Positions 3,046 to 35,990 of a stretch of 39,718 nucleotides of DNA are shown here, piece after piece; position 1 is the stretch's first letter; the number at the start of each line of letters is the position of its first letter. The notes under the pieces are model-generated. The model saw only the letters and a program-made list of their open reading frames with translations. It made no database searches and was not told where the DNA came from. This DNA comes from an uncultured Opitutales bacterium (GTDB lineage: Bacteria > Verrucomicrobiota > Verrucomicrobiia > Opitutales > UBA2995). The position numbers and the translations under genes are program-made. The stretch spans positions 1 through 39,718 of the forward strand of contig CALJGU010000170.1 in NCBI GenBank assembly GCA_938075565.1, read 5' to 3'.

Positions 3046-4641
3046 ATGCTGACAAGGCCCCTTTGGATTCTCCTAGTTTGGATTTCTCTATTCAGTTCAA
3101 CCCTCATTGCGGATGAACGGCCCAACATCATTCTCGTCGTGGCCGATGACATGGGGTTTTCGGATGCTGGCTGTTACGGAGGAGATATCCAAACGCCTAC
3201 TCTTGATAGTCTGGCTGAGAACGGATTGAGGTTTTCGCAAATGTATTCCACCGGGCGTTGTTGGCCTTCTCGTGCGGTGTTGATGACAGGTTATTATGCT
3301 CAACAGGTGGGAATGGATCCTCGAAAGGGAAAGGAATGGCCCAGCTGGAGTCGGCTACTTCCCATGCGCCTTAAGGAGGCTGGCTACCGGAACTACCATT
3401 CCGGGAAATGGCATCTCAGAGGTATGCCTGCTGATTCGGCTGTGAGTGGATTCGATCGGTCCTTTTATTTGGGGGATCAGGATCGGTTCTTCAGCCCGAG
3501 GAAGGTTTTTGTAGATGACGAGCCGCAACCAGCGATTGAGCGTGATTCCGGATTCTACTCCACCGTGGCTAAGGCGGATTACGCGATTGAATTTCTGGAA
3601 GAGCATAAAGCTGAAACGCCTGATCAACCCTTCTTTCTCTACTTGGCCTTTTTTGCACCACACTTCCCGCTTCATGCGCTTCCCGAGGATATTGAGAAAT
3701 ACCAGGACGAATATTTAAGGGGTTGGGATATTGTGGGGAAAGAGCGTTGGTCCCGGTTGACGGCAATAGGTATGGTCAATTCGGGATTGGCAGAACGAAG
3801 GCAGGACATCTTTCCGCCCTGGAATCTTTCCGATGATGAATTGGTTTCTCAAATCCACCCAGGAGAAGTGGCCTATGCCCTGCCCTGGGATGACCTGACT
3901 GAAGAACAGCAACGTTTCCAAGCAACCAAGATGGCAATCCATGCTGCTATGATTGATCGCATGGATCAGGAGATTGGGCGAGTGAAGGCGGAAGTTGAGC
4001 GTATTGGTGAATCTGATAACACCTTATTTATTTTTGTATCCGATAATGGGGCCAGTGGCGAAATGATGAACCGCGGTGACAGGCACGATCCAGCTGCACC
4101 TCTTGGTTCTGCTGGGTCCTATCTTGGACTTGGCCCTGGGTGGTCGACGGCCGCCAACAGTCCCTTTTCCTTCCACAAGCATTGGAATCACGAAGGAGGC
4201 ATTTCATCGCCCATGATAGTTAGTTGGCCTAAAGGAATTCAGGCCCGTGGGGAGCTTCGCCATACTCCAGCGCATTTCATCGATCTCTATCCCACTATTT
4301 TAGACCTTGCTGGTGGTGAGGCCGAGTCGCCTAAAGAAGGACCCTCCTTGCCCGGACGCAGTTTGGTTTCCGCTTTCAATGCACCCGTCGATTGGTCAGA
4401 TCGATTTATATATTGGGCCCATTCTGGAAATAGAGCCATTCGGCAAGGCAGCTGGAAGGCTGTTACTCGCCGGGACAATGAGGAGCGGTGGGAGTTATAT
4501 AATCTTGAAGATGACCGAGCTGAGCTGAATGACCTCGCGACATCCAAACCGGATAAGCTGAATACGTTGGCAACCGCCTGGGAAACCTTGGAAGTTCAGT
4601 TTAACAAAGACTTTGAAACGGGCACGCACTCGATTAAATAG
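3046..4641 (+). CDS. Exported sulfatase (FGly type)
   Basis: A 531-residue arylsulfatase-family enzyme starting at an ATG preceded by GGAG. The signal peptide is about residues 1-22. The FGly motif C-W-P-S-R has its Cys at residue 72, the metal pairs are DD at 34-35 and DN at 333-334, and the signature continues with LMTG. It lacks the long C-terminal extension of the sulfatase gene at 96-1859, so the two are different subfamilies rather than a recent duplication. It diverges from the NHL-repeat gene and ends about 70 bases before a tRNA gene, with a candidate terminator between. Expected role: sulfate release from algal or host glycans in the periplasm or outside the cell. Substrate unknown. 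Confidence 0.9.
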   Translation: MLTRPLWILLVWISLFSSTLIADERPNIILVVADDMGFSDAGCYGGDIQTPTLDSLAENGLRFSQMYSTGRCWPSRAVLMTGYYAQQVGMDPRKGKEWPSWSRLLPMRLKEAGYRNYHSGKWHLRGMPADSAVSGFDRSFYLGDQDRFFSPRKVFVDDEPQPAIERDSGFYSTVAKADYAIEFLEEHKAETPDQPFFLYLAFFAPHFPLHALPEDIEKYQDEYLRGWDIVGKERWSRLTAIGMVNSGLAERRQDIFPPWNLSDDELVSQIHPGEVAYALPWDDLTEEQQRFQATKMAIHAAMIDRMDQEIGRVKAEVERIGESDNTLFIFVSDNGASGEMMNRGDRHDPAAPLGSAGSYLGLGPGWSTAANSPFSFHKHWNHEGGISSPMIVSWPKGIQARGELRHTPAHFIDLYPTILDLAGGEAESPKEGPSLPGRSLVSAFNAPVDWSDRFIYWAHSGNRAIRQGSWKAVTRRDNEERWELYNLEDDRAELNDLATSKPDKLNTLATAWETLEVQFNKDFETGTHSIK

Positions 4642-13987: not shown

Positions 13988-14629
13988 TTATTTCGCTGGG
14001 TTTAAAACAGCGGCGAGTGAGTAGTGCTTATTCTTTGTTAGCTCCTGAAAAACGGTGACTGCCACTTCAGGCCAAATAACATCTTCCTCAAGCTGCCACC
14101 TGTTGGATTCGTCAATCAGCTCCTGAGTCCACTCAAGGTAGGGCTCATAGTCAGAGCGTAAGAATAGTTGGCTGGCCTCTGCGGCTTTGTCCGCTAGTTG
14201 GCTCAGGAAGTCCGTTTGGACGATGCGATTCTTGAAGTGCCTTTTCTTCGGCCATGGATCCGGGTATAAAATCCAGGTTTTGGCGATTCGCACATGTTTC
14301 GGCAAAAGCGCTAGAAATTCCATGCTGTCGCAATCGTAAAACCAGACATTTCCCAGCTTCGCACGATCAGCCTTTCTAAGAGCTTTGTAGATCCTGCCTC
14401 TGTTTACATCGATCCCGATACAGGTTTCATCTTGAAAGGCTTCTCCGTAGGCAGTCAGAAAATGTCCGTGCCCACACCCGACTTCCAGGGTAATTGTATC
14501 TGTGTTCGCCAGCTTCTCGGCCAACATCTTCTTCAGGGCTTCACGCTTCTCCAGAATCTTTTGGTAGACCTCTGGCTTCATTCGCTTTGCCAGCTCAGGA
14601 TCGGTTGAGTTTATAAATAATTTTGTCAT
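13988..14629 (-). CDS. trmB: tRNA (guanine-N7-)-methyltransferase
   Basis: Makes m7G46 in tRNA using S-adenosylmethionine. The 213-residue product shows the SAM loop E-V-G-C-G-H-G-H-F-L (about 49-58), the acidic I-G-I-D-V-N end of strand 2, and the TrmB signature Y-P-D-P-W-P-K-K-R-H-x-K-N-R near 120-135. The start codon overlaps the stop of the histidine kinase gene by one base (TAATG), which indicates translational coupling. Confidence 0.96.
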   Translation of the reverse strand: MTKLFINSTDPELAKRMKPEVYQKILEKREALKKMLAEKLANTDTITLEVGCGHGHFLTAYGEAFQDETCIGIDVNRGRIYKALRKADRAKLGNVWFYDCDSMEFLALLPKHVRIAKTWILYPDPWPKKRHFKNRIVQTDFLSQLADKAAEASQLFLRSDYEPYLEWTQELIDESNRWQLEEDVIWPEVAVTVFQELTKNKHYSLAAVLNPAK

Positions 14630-15906
14630 TAATCCTTGATCGGCAGGTTGATCTGAATTCGCAGTCCCCCACCCTTTACGTTTTCTGCCTGAACTGTTCC
14701 ATCGTAAAGAGCGGCGATTCGCTTTACGATACTTAGCCCAAGACCTGTACCACCTTTGTTCCGGGACCTTCCCTTTTCAACGCGGTAGAATCGTTCAAAT
14801 ATTCTGGGCAGATCTTCTTCTGGGACGCCATTCCCGTCGTCTTCGACCCAAAGGATCGCTGCCTTGTTTTCAAGTTGGGCTCCGATTTTCAGGGTGGTGC
14901 CATATGGCGTGTATTTAGTGGCGTTGTTTAGAAGATTCTCCAGCACTTGCTCCAACTTGCTACGGTCAGCTTGCACTTCAATCTCTTCTTCAGGCACTTC
15001 GAGAGACACATCCACCCCATGGTTCTGGAACCGGTCGCTGTATATAGATAACACATGGTTCACCAGTGCGTTGAGTCCTATCGGTTCTTTTGTGGTACTA
15101 GCTTCTGTCGATTCAATCTTGGCTAACGAAAGTAAGTCTTCCAAAAGATCGTTCATGCGATCTGCATTTTTTTGAAGTTTACCTAAAAACCTCATCCTAA
15201 GCTCAGCAGGCATGGTTTCGCTATCTTGATTAAGGGTATCGGCATATCCCTTTATGATCGTTACGGGAGTTCGAAGTTCATGGGAGACGTTGGCGACAAA
15301 TTCTCGTCGGATGGTTTCTTGCTCCTTGCCTTGGGTGATTTCGTAGAAAATCAGTAAGATTAGGTCTTCTGCTTCGGATGAATCGGCTTTGGCCTTGGCT
15401 CCTGATACTCTCACCCAGCGTTTTTCGTTGGATTGAATAAACTCAATTTCTGTTGGTTCACTTGTCCCGTTTGCCTTGATTTGATCAATGATTGCTAGGA
15501 GGCCTGAGTTTGAGAACAAGACTTCGAGGCGCTGACCTGTAATTTTCTGAGAACCAATCCAGCTATTAAAGGAGTTCCTCAACGCTTTGTTAGCCATTAG
15601 GATACGGTTGCTGCCGTCAAGTATGACAACTCCCTCACCCATGTTTTCAAGAGTAGCCTCGAGTTGTTCGCTGTGACTGGTTCTGGCCCGATTGAGGTTG
15701 GAGTTCTCCAGGATCAGCTTGTTCAGTCTCTTTGTGAGGCGTCGCATGTATTTGGATTTGCGCGTCTCGTTTTCGCCTTCATGCAAGTAACTCTGACGGG
15801 CCTTCAGGGAGGCCCCCAGGTGCTTTACGTAGTTTCTGTAGAGTAGGTATCGTCTAATAAAATAGATGAGCGCTACGGACAAAACTAGGATGACGAATAC
15901 ATCCAT
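14629..15906 (-). CDS. PhoR-type sensor histidine kinase
   Basis: A 425-residue membrane kinase: one N-terminal membrane helix (about 2-18), a basic linker and coiled coil (about 30-80), a PAS domain (about 80-195), a HisKA domain with phospho-acceptor His near 209 in F-V-A-N-V-S-H-E-L-R-T-P, and a HATPase domain with N, G1 (D-D-G-N-G-V-P) and G2 (G-G-T-G-L-G-L-S) boxes. With a single membrane helix and no periplasmic domain it resembles the PhoR group, which senses through PstSCAB/PhoU; none of those genes is here, so phosphate sensing is inferred. It lies 3 bases after the response-regulator gene and overlaps trmB. Confidence 0.85.
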   Translation of the reverse strand: MDVFVILVLSVALIYFIRRYLLYRNYVKHLGASLKARQSYLHEGENETRKSKYMRRLTKRLNKLILENSNLNRARTSHSEQLEATLENMGEGVVILDGSNRILMANKALRNSFNSWIGSQKITGQRLEVLFSNSGLLAIIDQIKANGTSEPTEIEFIQSNEKRWVRVSGAKAKADSSEAEDLILLIFYEITQGKEQETIRREFVANVSHELRTPVTIIKGYADTLNQDSETMPAELRMRFLGKLQKNADRMNDLLEDLLSLAKIESTEASTTKEPIGLNALVNHVLSIYSDRFQNHGVDVSLEVPEEEIEVQADRSKLEQVLENLLNNATKYTPYGTTLKIGAQLENKAAILWVEDDGNGVPEEDLPRIFERFYRVEKGRSRNKGGTGLGLSIVKRIAALYDGTVQAENVKGGGLRIQINLPIKD

Positions 15907-15909
15907 TGT

Positions 15910-16608
15910 TTAGTTTTCAGCAACCTTGTAGCCTACCCCGCGAATTGTTTCTATTATATCTGCTTGGTTACCAAGCTTTTCCCGCAATCTTCGAATATGG
16001 GTATCCACGGTTCGGGTTTCAGTGTCGCTTTCGTAATTCCAAACACTAGTCAGGAGGCTTTCTCGAGTCTGAACCTTTCCCTTTCTATCGATCAAAAGTT
16101 TTAGAAGTTTAAATTCGGTTGCTGTGAGCTCTACTCGCTTGCCGTCTACTTCTAGGAGGAATTGCTCTTCATCAAGGAAAACTCCACGAATACTGAAAGC
16201 CGTGGTCGATGGCGTTGGATCATTCTTTTGGGTCCGCTTGAGAATGGCTTTAACACGAAGAACTAACTCTTTAATGTTGAAGGGTTTACAGATGTAGTCG
16301 TCCGCTCCTGTTTCCCAGCCGAGAATTTTATCTTCATCTTCGGATTTTGCAGTTAAGAACACAACTGGCACTTCCTTTAATTTACTATCAGCTCGAATCA
16401 TACGGCAGATCTGGATCCCATCTATTCCAGGCATCATTATATCGAGAATAAATAAATCGGGCTGAAAGTCCCTTCCAATACCAAGTATCAATGTGGGATC
16501 GTTGATGGCTTTGACATTAAGCCCTTCAGCACCAAGGTGATAGCAGATCAATTCTGTCACATCTTCCTCATCATCAAGCACCAGAATTCTACTATTGTTG
16601 TAGTTCAT
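15910..16608 (-). CDS. OmpR/PhoB-family response regulator
   Basis: A 232-residue regulator. The receiver domain has the acidic pair at 12-13, phospho-acceptor Asp56 in F-I-L-D-I-M-M-P-G, and the conserved Lys in C-K-P-F. A winged-helix DNA-binding domain follows at about 135-232, with the recognition-helix region near R-T-V-D-T-H-I-R-R-L-R-E-K-L. GGGAG lies 7 bases before the ATG. Its partner kinase follows at once. PhoB-like by pairing and domain type; other OmpR-family roles cannot be excluded. Confidence 0.85.
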   Translation of the reverse strand: MNYNNSRILVLDDEEDVTELICYHLGAEGLNVKAINDPTLILGIGRDFQPDLFILDIMMPGIDGIQICRMIRADSKLKEVPVVFLTAKSEDEDKILGWETGADDYICKPFNIKELVLRVKAILKRTQKNDPTPSTTAFSIRGVFLDEEQFLLEVDGKRVELTATEFKLLKLLIDRKGKVQTRESLLTSVWNYESDTETRTVDTHIRRLREKLGNQADIIETIRGVGYKVAEN

Positions 16609-16677: not shown

Positions 16678-18543
16678 TTACTTCAGTTTGCCCGCTTCCA
16701 GTAAAACCATGAGGATGCTAATGTCTGAAGGATTTACACCGCTTATCCGCTTTGCTTGGCCCAATGTAATTGGTTGAATGGAATTTAGTTTTGCCGCACT
16801 TTCATTCCGTAGTCCTCTAACCTTCTCGTAATCAAATGGGGTTGGTAACTTAATTTTATCTACAGAAGCCATGCGCTCCACCAGCCGAAGTTCTCTTTCG
16901 AGATAGCCCTTATATCGAAGCCGGTAGAGTACTTCTGATTGAATCTCGGGTGTCTCGCTTAAAAACTCTTTTGGAAAATCAATATCCGTTTCATTTCTGC
17001 GTATAGCTTCTGCAAAAGTGCCGCCTTTGGTCTTTTGACCTTCGAGGTTTTGTGACCAATTATCAATCGAAGAAATTTTGCAATCTATTTTAGCCCAACG
17101 AGTAGAAGATAAAAGATTAGAATCTTTTGCTTTCTTTGACAGCCGAATCTCTGCGCTACCATGATTCAATAGAAGTCTGTGCTCTGCACGGCTTGTAAAC
17201 ATTCGATACGGCTCAGATGTGCCTTTTGTAACAAGGTCATCTATCAATACTCCTATGTACGACTCATGCCGTTCGAGTATAAGTGCTTCTTCTCCCCTAC
17301 TCTTTTTAACCGCATTTACGCCTGCTAGTAATCCTTGGCCGGCGGCCTCTTCATATCCGGAGGTCCCGTTGATTTGACCGGCAAAGAATAAATTTTCTAC
17401 GAGTTTAGATTCTAAAGATGGATAAAGTTGAGTTGGGGGAGCAAAATCATATTCGACGGCATATGCGGGTCTTAACAGTTGCGCGTTTTCCAATCCTTGT
17501 ATGGTTTCCAGCATTTCCTCTTGGATTGTAAACGGCAGACTGGTTGAAAGGCCATTAATATAGAACTCATTGGTGTTTCTACCTTCGGGTTCAAGAAATA
17601 GCCTATGACGATCTCTGTCGCAAAATCTGACAATTTTATCCTCAATACTTGGACAATACCTTGGGCCAGTTCCCTCGATAGCACCGGAATACATAGCTGA
17701 TTGATGCAGGTTATCCCTTATTAAGTCGTGCGTTTTTTCAGATGTATAGGTGATCCAACATGATATTTGGTCTTTTCCTGGCTTCCAACCGAGTTTGGTT
17801 TCACCAGGATGTTCCACGTGGAACATATCCGATTCGTCACGAGTATCGTAAAATCCAAACAAAGTTGGTTCAGGATCACCAGGTTGTTCCTCTAATACTG
17901 AAAAATCAATGGATCTACCAAGTATTCTGGGGGGAGTGCCCGTTTTTAAGCGCTCTAACTCAATACCTGCTTGAATAAAGCTATCTGAAAGAGATTCAGC
18001 GCTGAAGTCGCCCATTCGGCCACCTTTATTGGTTTTCTTGCCCACATGCATAAGCCCTCGAAGAAAAGTTCCTGTAGTGACAACTACACTGTGAGCAAAA
18101 AATTCTATTCCAAGGTTGGTATTACAGCCAATAACACGATCACCTTTAAAAATGAGTCCTGTAACGGTAGCCTGGAATAGGGTGAGGTTTTGTTGATGTT
18201 CTATCGTGTGCTTTAATCTAAATTGGTAAGCTTTCTTATCGGATTGAACTCTTGGTGCCTGAACTGAAACGCCTTTAGATGAATTGAGTAGTCGAAATTG
18301 AATTCCTGTAGTATCAGCATTAACACCCATCTCACCACCCAAAGCGTCGATTTCTCTGACAATGTGACCTTTGGCTTGGCCACCAATAGCTGGATTACAA
18401 CTCATGGCTCCAATGGTATCGATGTTACCGCTGAGGAGTAGGGTAGAGGATCCCATTCTTGCGGCCGCCAGTCCGGCTTCAACACCGGCATGACCGGCTC
18501 CACAAACAATGACATCAAAAGGCTTCTTATTACTGATAATCAT
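16678..18543 (-). CDS. mnmG: tRNA uridine-5-carboxymethylaminomethyl modification enzyme MnmG (GidA)
   Basis: With MnmE it installs the cmnm5 group on U34 of tRNAs reading split codon boxes, using FAD, methylene-THF and glycine. Of 621 residues, the FAD loop G-A-G-H-A-G is at 15-20, the family motif C-N-P-A-I-G-G near 49-55, and a late [12 protein letters not shown]. Residues 240-245 read M-F-H-V-E-H and are encoded by a perfect parS palindrome, which appears to be a small insert in a loop. The start codon touches the mnmE stop codon with no gap, matching the two proteins' role as a complex. Confidence 0.98.
17809..17826. promoter_or_regulatory. parS: parS centromere site (ParB binding) inside mnmG
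   Basis: The 16-base core TGTTCCACGTGGAACA (17810-17825) is a perfect palindrome, extended to 18 by flanking A and T. It matches the known bacterial parS consensus TGTTnCACGTGnAACA, including the form known from Pseudomonas. It lies in frame inside mnmG. parS sites cluster near oriC, and parAB and mnmG commonly sit there, so this places the window near the origin (inference). Confidence 0.85.
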
Positions 18544-19899
18544 TTACTTCCCAATACAAAAGCTCGCAAAAAGTTTATCTAAGATGCGTTCATTATCGAT
18601 TCGGCCAACTATTGCTTCAAGATTCGTCATTGCTTCTCTCAAATGATTTGCAACCAGTTCTGCTGGTTCTTCTATTCGGAGCAAATTTGAGGCGGTCTTT
18701 AGTTCGTATTTTGCCGTTTCAAGGGCTGCGTGGTGACGAGCACCCACTGCAACTACATCTCCCTGGCTTGAAATCTTTGGTTCACCTAACAGGTCTGCAA
18801 TTGATCTACGGAGATTGTCGATACCGGTTTGTTCTGTGGCTGATACGCTCACGCTTCTGAAGGATTCAAATTGCTTGTTCTGATTATTGTTCTCGGGCAA
18901 ATCAGATTTGTTCTTAATAACGATCGTTTTACCCGGTATCAAAAGGTTGAATACGTCAGTGTCGAAGGAGGGTGGGGGAGCAGAAGAATCGATTGTAAGC
19001 AATATGATGTCACTTAAAGCAATCTGTTCCAACGTTTTATGAATGCCTTCTTGTTCGATTGTGTCATCGGTTTCATGGATGCCTGCTGTATCTATTATAT
19101 TGATACGATAGGGCTCCACGAAAAACGACGCCTCAATATAATCACGAGTTGTTCCGGGACGATCACTAACAATGGCTCTTGATTCTCCCAATAAACAATT
19201 CATCAAGCTACTCTTACCCGCATTGGGTTCTCCAATGATGATGGCCTTAACTCCTTCTCTTAAATAGATCCCAGTTTGGGCTGTTTCAGATAGGGATTTA
19301 ATTTGATCGGTCAGACCTTCGATTTTCTGTCTGGGAGCATTTTCTTCTTCAGCGGGTAGGTCTTCTTCCGGGAAATCAATATAGGCTTCGATTTCTGCTA
19401 CAATTTGAAGAAGTTCTTCGACCAAATTGTTGATTCGTCTGCTTAAGCTTCCTTGTAACTGATTTGATGCTGCTTTAAATGACAATTCAGTTCTTGCCTT
19501 GATAAGATCTATCACCGCTTCTGCCTGGCTGAGGTCGAGCTTACCATTCATGAATGCGGTTTGCGTAAATTCCCCTGGCAGTGCATGTCTGCATCCACGC
19601 GTAACTAAGTCTTCTAGAACACGTTGGAGTATATACGGATTGCCGTGACATGAGATCTCAAGCATAGGATCTCCCGTGTATGATGCATTCTTTTCGAAAT
19701 AAGAATAAACAACCTGATCTAGAAAGTTTCCCTCTAAATCAATGTAATTTGCGTAGTAGGCGTGTCTTGGGGTAGGGGACTCCTCTCCAAATATGGAATG
19801 AATAAGATCCGTACATAAGGAACCACTGCAGCGAATTACCCCTAAAGCGGATTCACCGTGTGGTGTTGATAAGGCTGTATAAGTGTCCTGTGGCTCCAT
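18544..19899 (-). CDS. mnmE: tRNA modification GTPase MnmE (TrmE)
   Basis: GTPase partner of MnmG in U34 modification. The 451-residue product has an N-terminal folate-binding domain, a helical domain, and an inserted G domain: G1 G-E-P-N-A-G-K-S (223-230), G2 D-R-P-G-T-T-R-D, G3 D-T-A-G, G4 N-K-S-D. It ends with the C-terminal F-C-I-G-K motif whose Cys is needed for modification. It lies 14 bases downstream of recA and immediately before mnmG. Confidence 0.98.
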   Translation of the reverse strand: MEPQDTYTALSTPHGESALGVIRCSGSLCTDLIHSIFGEESPTPRHAYYANYIDLEGNFLDQVVYSYFEKNASYTGDPMLEISCHGNPYILQRVLEDLVTRGCRHALPGEFTQTAFMNGKLDLSQAEAVIDLIKARTELSFKAASNQLQGSLSRRINNLVEELLQIVAEIEAYIDFPEEDLPAEEENAPRQKIEGLTDQIKSLSETAQTGIYLREGVKAIIIGEPNAGKSSLMNCLLGESRAIVSDRPGTTRDYIEASFFVEPYRINIIDTAGIHETDDTIEQEGIHKTLEQIALSDIILLTIDSSAPPPSFDTDVFNLLIPGKTIVIKNKSDLPENNNQNKQFESFRSVSVSATEQTGIDNLRRSIADLLGEPKISSQGDVVAVGARHHAALETAKYELKTASNLLRIEEPAELVANHLREAMTNLEAIVGRIDNERILDKLFASFCIGK

Positions 19900-19913: not shown

Positions 19914-20981
19914 CTATCCTTCATCCCCGTCCTCTTCCGTGGACGCAATCACTTTTCCTACACTTGGATTAACTTTTTCCATTATCGCAGCCTTTATTTC
20001 TACCTGCTGATCAAGGTTTTCCATGAGGTGTTGCTTTGCAGCTTCACGTCCTTGACCGATAAGGTCACCTTTGTAGGAAATCCACGCACCTTTCTTGTCC
20101 AATATACCGTGTTCAACTCCAAGATCGATTAAAGATCCCGTTTTGGAGATTCCTTCGTTATACATAATATCGAACTCACATTCGGTAAATGGGGGTGCTA
20201 CTTTGTTCTTAACAACCTTCACGCGTGTTCTGTTCCCCATCACTTTGCCTGAGGGGTCCTTTATCTGACCAATTCGACGTATGTCCATGCGAACAGAAGC
20301 AAAAAACTTCAAAGCACGGCCACCTGGAGTTGTTTCTGGACTCCCGAACATCACACCAATCTTTTCGCGGATTTGGTTGGTGAACATACAAACGCACTTA
20401 CTTTTATTAATGGCTCCGGCCAAGCGTCGCATTGCCTGACTCATCATTCTGGCCTGTAATCCGACTGTTGTGTCACCCATTTGACCATCCAGTTCTGTTC
20501 TGGATACCAAAGCGGCAACGGAATCGAGAACGACTACGTCAACTGCCCCGGATCGTATGAGGGTCTCGGTGATGTTCAGGGCGTCTTCTCCGCTTTCAGG
20601 TTGAGAAATCATTAGTTCGCTGAGATCTACTCCAAGAACACGGGCATATTTTGGGTCTAGAGCATGTTCAACGTCAATAAAGGCAGCGGTTCCACCGTTT
20701 TTCTGTGCTTCAGCAATTAAACCAAGGCAAAGAGTTGTCTTACCTGATGATTCCGGTCCGTAAATTTCACAGATACGTCCGCGAGGTATTCCCCCTATAC
20801 CGAGAGCAAGGTCGATAGCGACCGATCCTGTAGAAATACAGGATACATTGAGCTTGGGAGATTCACCCAGACGCATAATGGCGTTTTCGCCAAATTGCTT
20901 GTTGATTGCTGATATCGCGAGATCGAGGTTCTGTTTACGATCATCGCCGAAGTTTGTTTTTGGTTTTGCTGCTTTTGCCAT
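19914..20981 (-). CDS. recA: Recombinase RecA
   Basis: Strand exchange and SOS co-protease, 355 residues. Walker A is G-P-E-S-S-G-K-T-T (75-83), and the family signature [14 protein letters not shown] appears near 235-248. The C terminus is acidic (E-E-D-G-D-E-G). It heads a minus-strand run with mnmE 14 bases downstream, an unusual but clear arrangement. A dyad about 90 bases upstream could be its operator. It is divergent from a MazG-like gene. Confidence 0.99.
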
Positions 20982-34625: not shown

Positions 34626-35990
34626 TTAAAGTTCGCGTATCTTGATGCTGCGGTAACTGACCTTGTCATTGTGGTCTTGAAGGGAAATGCCTCCTGAATC
34701 GTGGAGGCCAAATCCTTCCTTGTCGGCATACTTACTGCGGGCGACCAAGGCATGGAAAATGTTACTGCCACGTTCGTAGGAAACGACTTTGAAGCCATTG
34801 AGCCAGTGTTCCACTTGGCCGTTGGGTTGGACAATAACCCTGCCATGGTTCCAGCTGCCTATGTTTACGGGGACGTTTCGTGTGGAAACTTCGCGGTAGG
34901 CAGGAATCAAGTCATACAGGGAAGCACAGGTGCGATTGCCTACCACTCCTTGCTTGGCATCTGGATGCACTTTGTCATCGAGCACTTGATATTCCAGGCC
35001 GAGTGCAGCTTTACCCGGCTCGGTGACAAAATATTTCACACCGCTGTTGGCTCCCTTGGTCATGAGGAATTCGAAATCCAACTCAAATGCGCCATACTTT
35101 TTGGTCGTTACAATATCGCCTCCAAGTTTTTCCTGACCTTCTGGCGTTGGTAGAACAGTGAGTGTTCCGTCTTTGATTTCCCATCCTTTTTCAGGGGCTT
35201 TATCGGAGGCTACATTGCGCCACCCATTGAAGTTCTTGCCATTCCAAAGGAGCTCCCAACCTTGTCGTCTTTCATCTCGAGTCATGTTGTTGGGGATAAT
35301 ATTTCGGATGTATAGGCCTTGGTTTTCGGTAGGGCCTTTGACGTCTTCATTTATTCTTATGTTACGCCACGAAACTTCCTTTCCTATAATGTCTTCATTT
35401 TTTCCAACGCCATGAACTTGCAGGGCGATAAAGCCATTGGGTGTAAGGTCATCAATCAGGTGAGATACGGGACTTCCATTTAACCATGTGCGAATAGAGT
35501 TCCCAATACACTCTATCCGTACTTCATTCCAATCGTTCTGTTTATAAAGTAATTTAGCCTCTGGATTGAGATCAACGGGGTAGAGCCAGCCACGACGAGC
35601 CTCATCATAGATTCCACCTGTCCAACGCCTTTCAGCTGTATCAAGCTCGTACTGATACCCGTGCACACGGCCTTCCCTGTATTCAGGAAAGCTCTGGCTG
35701 CGGAACTGAATTCCCGAATTCAACCCATTGTCTACTTTCACTTCCAGGATTAAAAGAAAATCGCCGTAGCTCTTATCTGTGGTGAGAAAGGTGTTTGGCG
35801 ATTTCGGCACAGATTTTCCAACAATCGCTCCATCTTCGATGCGGTATTCGGCGTATCCGTTTTTCTTGGTCCAGCCATCCAACGACTTTCCGTCGAACAG
35901 GCTGACCCACTCTGACCTCGCGGTTATCGCGCTCAGGCTGAGCAGTAAAAGGGTGATGATGGAAGTGGGTCTTATATATTTTAGTTTCAT
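34626..35990 (-). CDS. Double-domain DUF1080 (3-keto-disaccharide hydrolase-like) exported protein
   Basis: A 454-residue secreted protein. The signal peptide (about 1-26) is followed by two tandem DUF1080 domains, each opening with the L-F/W-D/N-G-K-x-x-x-G-W signature (31-40 and 248-257), then N-S-G-I/V and a W-N-x-x-R/G-R pattern. The first domain ends near 215 and the second at the C terminus. DUF1080 is a concanavalin-like beta-sandwich; some members hydrolyse 3-keto-glycosides. First gene of the likely operon with the Gfo/Idh/MocA and SDR genes, so it may cleave what the exported dehydrogenase oxidises. Tandem duplication within one chain may separate binding from catalysis (speculative). 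Confidence 0.9.
   Translation of the reverse strand: MKLKYIRPTSIITLLLLSLSAITARSEWVSLFDGKSLDGWTKKNGYAEYRIEDGAIVGKSVPKSPNTFLTTDKSYGDFLLILEVKVDNGLNSGIQFRSQSFPEYREGRVHGYQYELDTAERRWTGGIYDEARRGWLYPVDLNPEAKLLYKQNDWNEVRIECIGNSIRTWLNGSPVSHLIDDLTPNGFIALQVHGVGKNEDIIGKEVSWRNIRINEDVKGPTENQGLYIRNIIPNNMTRDERRQGWELLWNGKNFNGWRNVASDKAPEKGWEIKDGTLTVLPTPEGQEKLGGDIVTTKKYGAFELDFEFLMTKGANSGVKYFVTEPGKAALGLEYQVLDDKVHPDAKQGVVGNRTCASLYDLIPAYREVSTRNVPVNIGSWNHGRVIVQPNGQVEHWLNGFKVVSYERGSNIFHALVARSKYADKEGFGLHDSGGISLQDHNDKVSYRSIKIREL

Follow-up and report, generated by a model that had tools for sequence, protein, structure and literature searches.

The window, a stretch of 39,718 nucleotides, is one whole contig (C170) of the draft genome of an uncultured Opitutales bacterium (4.6 Mb in 367 contigs, 90.9% complete). 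Its minus strand encodes MnmG (GidA), a tRNA-modification protein of 621 amino acids (positions 16678–18543) that matched Pfam PF01134 and NCBIfam TIGR00136, the latter with 761 bits against a cut-off of 525. Upstream of mnmG, on the same strand, lie an mnmE-like GTPase gene (18544–19899) and a recA-like gene (19914–20981), and downstream of it phoB-like and phoR-like genes (14629–16608, also minus strand). These neighbours are open reading frames named by recognition, and tblastn was run for the mnmE-like, recA-like, and phoBR-like genes. In tblastn searches of the fetched relatives, the mnmE-like gene also adjoined mnmG in many cases, and the recA-like neighbour was found in several. Elsewhere in the window, three ORFs (3–1859, 3046–4641, and 34626–35990) were likewise recognized as two sulfatase-like genes and one DUF1080-like gene.

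Within the mnmG coding sequence, positions 17809–17826 carry ATGTTCCACGTGGAACAT, which is identical to its own reverse complement and hence a perfect 18-base palindrome belonging to neither strand. Its core is the parS core TGTTCCACGTGGAACA, and the 16 bases at 17810–17825 are an exact copy of the parS consensus TGTTNCACGTGNAACA. On the minus strand, the palindrome is read in frame as M240 F241 H242 V243 E244 H245 of MnmG, so that the original prediction of an exact parS in mnmG, translated as MFHVEH at residues 240–245, was borne out for palindrome, core, and frame. This was the sole match to the consensus in the window even when up to three mismatches were allowed, a level at which 1.44 matches would be expected by chance. 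In the whole draft genome, the exact site again occurred once; from the base composition of the window, 0.018 exact sites are expected by chance per genome and 7e-6 per mnmG. We rejected near-consensus sites elsewhere in this genome as further parS candidates: at up to two mismatches there were nine matches, including that at 17810–17825, against 20 for a reversed control pattern, and the other near matches therefore look like chance.

The peptide falls in a variable loop of MnmG (residues 236–257; positions 17773–17838, minus strand), which was delimited by a gap in structural homologues, low pLDDT, and the alignment of the order. In pairwise comparisons with two MnmG proteins of solved structure, it is aligned to a gap, covering residues 235–244 against the Aquifex (A. 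aeolicus) protein and 237–243 against that of E. coli, as anticipated from the claim that the hexapeptide is an insert in a loop. An AlphaFold2 model built with 30 sequences (mean pLDDT 76) gave residues 223–257 a pLDDT below 50 and almost no secondary structure; values below 50 were also seen in other stretches of the protein, for example 75–101. The model is consistent with the peptide being an insert in a tolerant loop.

Conservation and codon usage within the order

Among 53 genomes of the same order, the window's own counted in, 41 contained the exact site. It lay inside mnmG in 40 of these 41 and was the only exact site of the genome in 32 of them. The sole exception, G009, has its exact site outside mnmG and a degenerate mnmG loop. 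Its site (L017:1501-1516; G009:C14:27491) lies 20 kb from mnmG, is read in frame as MFHVEQ, and was apparently relocated; the ORF that bears it is cut by the end of the fetched stretch, has at least 745 amino acids, and had no match in Pfam, NCBIfam models, or PDB sequences. The remaining 12 of the 53 have no exact site; in six of them the mnmG loop is unassembled (G021, G023, G031, G048, G051, and G052), five are reduced genomes that lack ParB, and G033 keeps degenerate copies and FHVEQ. An apparent insert in the MnmG of G033 was discarded, being a run of X that stands for unread bases. FHVE[HQ] occurs in frame two or three times in each of five genomes (G008, G026, G027, G038, and G044).

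We also took 23 further mnmG genes of the order, picked by MnmG similarity; 18 had the exact site and five had one mismatch. FHVEQ is retained with one synonymous base change within the palindrome in G098 (CAT) and G249 (GTA), and in G103 with an altered base just before the peptide, one base off the consensus; in G103, G185, and G245 the one-mismatch site comes with a changed amino acid. A minority of genes in the order thus show drift by one base. The original prediction had named retention of the peptide after loss of the palindrome as an outcome that would speak against it; this does occur, in G033, G098, G103, and G249, and these are exceptions among 64 genes.

A GTDB scan for the exact site, set at the spacing expected from the DTR motif, returned at least 118 stretches and, because it required the exact site, is uninformative on codon freedom. 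Among the matches listed, 80 titles named mostly Opitutaceae, Puniceicoccaceae, Opitutia, Opitutales, or unspecific Verrucomicrobia, and also Cerasicoccus, Pelagicoccus, and Cephaloticoccus. Two of these titles, Akkermansia muciniphila (L195) and Polynucleobacter meluiroseus (L223), we take to be mislabelled bins, because their MnmG is 64–66% identical to the window's, like that of the remaining stretches.

As a codon control, we aligned 38 mnmG genes of the order encoding more than 600 residues, out of 41 bearing FHVE[HQ], which were chosen for the peptide and not for an exact parS. Across these genes, the amino acid was invariant in 168 columns, Met and Trp excluded, and only F241, H242, V243, and E244 were written with a single codon throughout; the commonest codon of the next best column had a share of 0.79, and the median was 0.47. 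FHVE was encoded by TTC CAC GTG GAA in all 47 FHVE[HQ] copies of the 41 genes, for which the product of the genes' own codon frequencies is 10^-72.6, ignoring kinship. In 44 of the 47, the preceding codon was nTG with a freely variable first base, and the final base of the H or Q codon was also variable. Since the FHVE columns alone among the 168 were frozen to one codon, the control supports a constraint at the DNA level, which the prediction had implied; together with the frame switching described below, it indicates that selection acts on the DNA and not on the peptide.

Occurrence in the class and phylum

In the class outside the order, the exact site was present in 119 of 188 genomes and absent from 69. 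Where site and mnmG were both among the matches listed, a set of 34 genomes biased to the best-matching MnmG, the site was in mnmG in 31. Of the fetched loci, 21 of 30 had it directly in MnmG, and by position it is probably in MnmG in L275 and L297 too. Sites outside mnmG were found in all seven genomes of family f43 with sites seen, and in G162, G265, and G139. No exact site was present in 75 class genomes, six of which belong to the window's own order; a match with one mismatch exists in 67 of the 75 (115 such matches in total vs 28 for the control). Among the 30 genomes with this match and mnmG both among the matches listed, 25 have it in mnmG. One-mismatch sites explain only part of the genomes that lack an exact one. 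A one-base variant, TGTTCCATGTGGAACA, which turns CACGTG into CATGTG, is common to G122, G126, G156, G173, G217, G235, and others; it sits within mnmG in many of these genomes, which have no exact site, and perhaps reflects a shifted ParB preference.

Outside the class, 29 of 73 genomes of the phylum had an exact site and 44 did not. The site was within mnmG in 27 of the 29; in L391 it lies 3' of mnmG, and in L397 sites are found in mnmE and upstream of mnmG. The 44 mnmG sites found outside the class are read as FHVE (33), CSTWN (9), or VPRGT (2), and in G308 all three frames are used within one MnmG protein. With three readings in mnmG, a function of the peptide does not explain the site. In three out-of-class loci (L395:1501, L396:2870, and L397:2048), an exact parS is in frame in the adjoining mnmE, where it reads LFHVEQW or MFHVEQW, and in two of these three genomes it is additional to a parS in mnmG. 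At L253:4445-4971, about 0.5 kb downstream of mnmG, a second, incomplete mnmG-like stretch bears a parS of its own and resembles a partial duplication.

ParB and its relation to the site

The presence of parB in the genome, which the original prediction required, was confirmed on another contig, C354. The protein scored 180.7 bits against TIGR00180 (cut-off 58.45) and has the domains ParB_N, HTH_ParB, and ParB_C; against the Noc model it stayed below the cut-off (238 vs 315). It aligns with R173 and G201 in Caulobacter numbering and, counted by hand along the alignment, has A and Q at the permissive positions 179 and 184. Passages of an earlier study report that R173 and G201 fix the reading of parS in Caulobacter and are absolutely conserved in ParB (PMC7383237). 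By these residues, the protein is a ParB of the parS-reading type. The gene (G000:C354:6500-8000; L048) lies between genes for a LysM protein and a SecG-like protein; der-like and fmt-like genes are found upstream, and the seven ORFs scanned here, parB itself among them, include no ParA.

ParB was detected in 43 of the 53 genomes of the order. Of the 40 genomes with ParB and an assembled mnmG loop, 38 had the exact site in mnmG, the exceptions being G009 and G033. Where ParB was not found and the loop was assembled, this was true for two of seven genomes (G003, 75% complete, and G015, 95% complete); the other five are reduced genomes of 0.8–1.1 Mb that keep MnmG and lack both site and peptide. 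The association between ParB and the exact site gave a Fisher p of 2.6e-4 with kinship ignored. Neither MnmG nor ParB was detected in G031 and G048 (0.8–0.9 Mb). In the class, two single-contig genomes of 0.9 Mb (G067 and G075) have MnmG but neither ParB nor a site, one-mismatch versions included, and their congener G130 has both ParB and the site. ParB was matched in 233 of 237 class genomes, in 230 of them over the cut-off, and most class genomes without an exact site still have ParB, so that no simple rule holds there.

Position relative to the replication origin

Because the window genome is too fragmented for a skew plot, we read the position of the origin from relatives. GC skew, sampled at 20 places in three single-contig genomes of the order, switched sign beside the site, with partly noisy values in G040. 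On finer sampling, the skew minimum lay 43 kb (G001), 19 kb (G011), and 83 kb (G040) from the site, or 0.7–1.9% of the genome, and in G026, sampled at seven places, the sign changed within about 77 kb of it. In four same-order relatives, then, parS is origin-proximal, its distance from the skew switch being at most about 2% of the genome. A search for DnaA boxes around the switch gave no cluster: no 600-base stretch held more than two boxes at one mismatch or less.

In the familiar gidAB-parAB origin cluster, parS stands beside parAB and dnaA. This arrangement was found neither in the window genome, where parB and dnaA are on contigs other than C170, nor in the four relatives. There, dnaA is 319 kb (G001), 1.04 Mb (G011), 1.94 Mb (G040), and 271 kb (G026) from the site, and in G040 almost opposite the skew-defined origin; parB is 0.9–2.05 Mb from parS. 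The prediction had placed both the origin and parAB nearby: the skew of the four relatives agrees with the former, and the distant parB contradicts the latter. In nine further genomes of the order, mnmG and dnaA are roughly 0.3–2.4 Mb apart, according to listed coordinates and rounded lengths. Because of these distances in all 13 genomes, dnaA is a poor marker of the origin in this order. We also searched for dnaA in seven outgroup genomes, in which it was 67 kb (G080), 26 kb (G086), 7 kb (G343), and 0.58 Mb (G260) from the site; in G065, G092, and G097, dnaA begins the contig and the site lies close to its other end, for which rounded lengths give no distance. It appears that dnaA moved in this order and that mnmG kept its place at the origin together with its parS; four genomes supply the skew data behind this.

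Discussion

We consider it very probable that the palindrome is a functional chromosomal parS centromere, carried in the reading frame of mnmG and marking the origin region; binding of ParB is what the sequence evidence points to. In ParABS systems, ParB binds parS, loads there, and spreads over adjoining DNA, and ParA moves the resulting complex. By the same route, ParB would bind the palindrome in mnmG, load, and spread over the neighbouring DNA, and ParA would move this complex together with the origin, thereby driving segregation. Because mnmG remains near the replication origin, the site could label the origin region for segregation even with dnaA and parB far away. Selection would retain the 16 bases, with FHVE[HQ] as the incidental result of translating them in one frame. 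The coding location is probably cheap, since the loop accepts different in-frame readings, and it would keep the site at the origin.

Four other explanations have to be weighed against this one. A single 16-mer in one metagenome-assembled genome is conceivable as a chance match, given 0.018 expected per genome; against 7e-6 expected per mnmG, however, 40 of 53 genomes of the order carry the site in mnmG, and it recurs across the phylum; with these order-wide counts and the out-of-class recurrence we reject chance, whose probability is negligible. The hexapeptide might instead matter to MnmG itself, through contact with tRNA or MnmE, and the palindrome might be incidental coding. The FHVE residues are indeed invariant in the alignment of the named loci, which were selected for the exact site, and FHVE is the commonest frame outside the class. 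Codon control and frame use nevertheless led us to reject a functional peptide, and we regard it as highly improbable: each of the four residues keeps one codon in 38 of 38 genes where other invariant residues vary, the frames CSTWN and VPRGT occur in mnmG outside the class, the number of FHVE[HQ] copies varies, the peptide is missing from five ParB-less genomes that retain MnmG, and it faces a gap in the A. aeolicus and E. coli proteins.

Another protein might read the palindrome, since CACGTG is a common recognition palindrome and could serve a Noc-like protein or a CACGTG-binding regulator. This is very unlikely in view of the conservation of all 16 bases, the outer TGTT and AACA included, the absence of the site along with ParB in the order sample, its closeness to the skew switch in four genomes, and a ParB in the same genome that has parS-type R and G residues and stays under the Noc cut-off. 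The main role of the site might also be local, with bound ParB repressing or tuning the mnmE-mnmG-phoBR unit and segregation relying on weaker sites. The intragenic location would fit such a role, as would the effect of ParB on promoters next to parS3 and parS4 in Pseudomonas aeruginosa, as given in the title of that study (PMC5521831). We think it unlikely, considering that 32 of the 41 order genomes with an exact site have no other and that the flanking genes change among relatives while the site remains.

The preferred reading, a parS centromere at the origin, has partial precedents. Passages on Thermus thermophilus HB27 describe a single chromosomal parS (parSc) within gidB, near the origin and directly preceding parA, and put some 6 kb between parAB and oriC (PMC4409726). 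As there, a gid-family gene for RNA modification holds a single parS in its coding sequence close to the origin; unlike the gidB site described in those passages, the present one is in mnmG (gidA), is distant from parB and dnaA in the order, recurs in the phylum, and is read in several frames. In P. aeruginosa, nine of the ten sites parS1-10 most likely lie within coding sequences, according to the passages concerned, and the title of the same paper states that one of the four parS closest to oriC is necessary and sufficient (PMC4368675). Unlike those many sites in different genes, genomes here usually have one to three, mostly in one MnmG loop. The palindrome belongs to the same class as that of the Caulobacter and B. 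subtilis ParB/Noc work, whose R173 and G201 are present in the window genome's own ParB; the passages of that paper include no verrucomicrobial protein (PMC7383237). In a Hi-C study of gut bacteria including Akkermansia muciniphila, passages place the origin by parS and GC skew and note that dnaA is not always at the origin (PMC10197239), as in our data, where parS and skew place the origin and dnaA is unreliable as a marker; those passages mention neither the gene that holds the Akkermansia site nor codon-level retention. Our searches of an open-access library turned up no description of parS in mnmG of Verrucomicrobiota, and the survey of Livny et al. 2007 may discuss it. Intragenic parS sites are thus already known, and the notable feature here is that they recur throughout the phylum in a single loop of the same housekeeping protein.

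One DNA stretch would here do two jobs, as a segregation signal in its bases and as tolerated filler in its translation, a reading suggested by the frozen codons and the frame changes within one gene. More broadly, and with some confidence, we propose that the main ParB-loading centromere of Verrucomicrobiota has been in mnmG since early in the phylum, with mnmG, in place of dnaA or parAB, the fixed landmark of the origin and its loop a landing pad for parS. If this is true, the loop gains, duplicates, frame-shifts, and replaces parS copies, and a DNA signal for an essential process is stabilized by residence in a housekeeping gene. The site would be a candidate origin marker for assemblies of Verrucomicrobiota in orders where dnaA misleads. 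The ParB-less genomes without the insert would form a natural experiment on the keeping or losing of centromeres, and the sequence of MnmG alone would report whether a lineage still uses ParABS.
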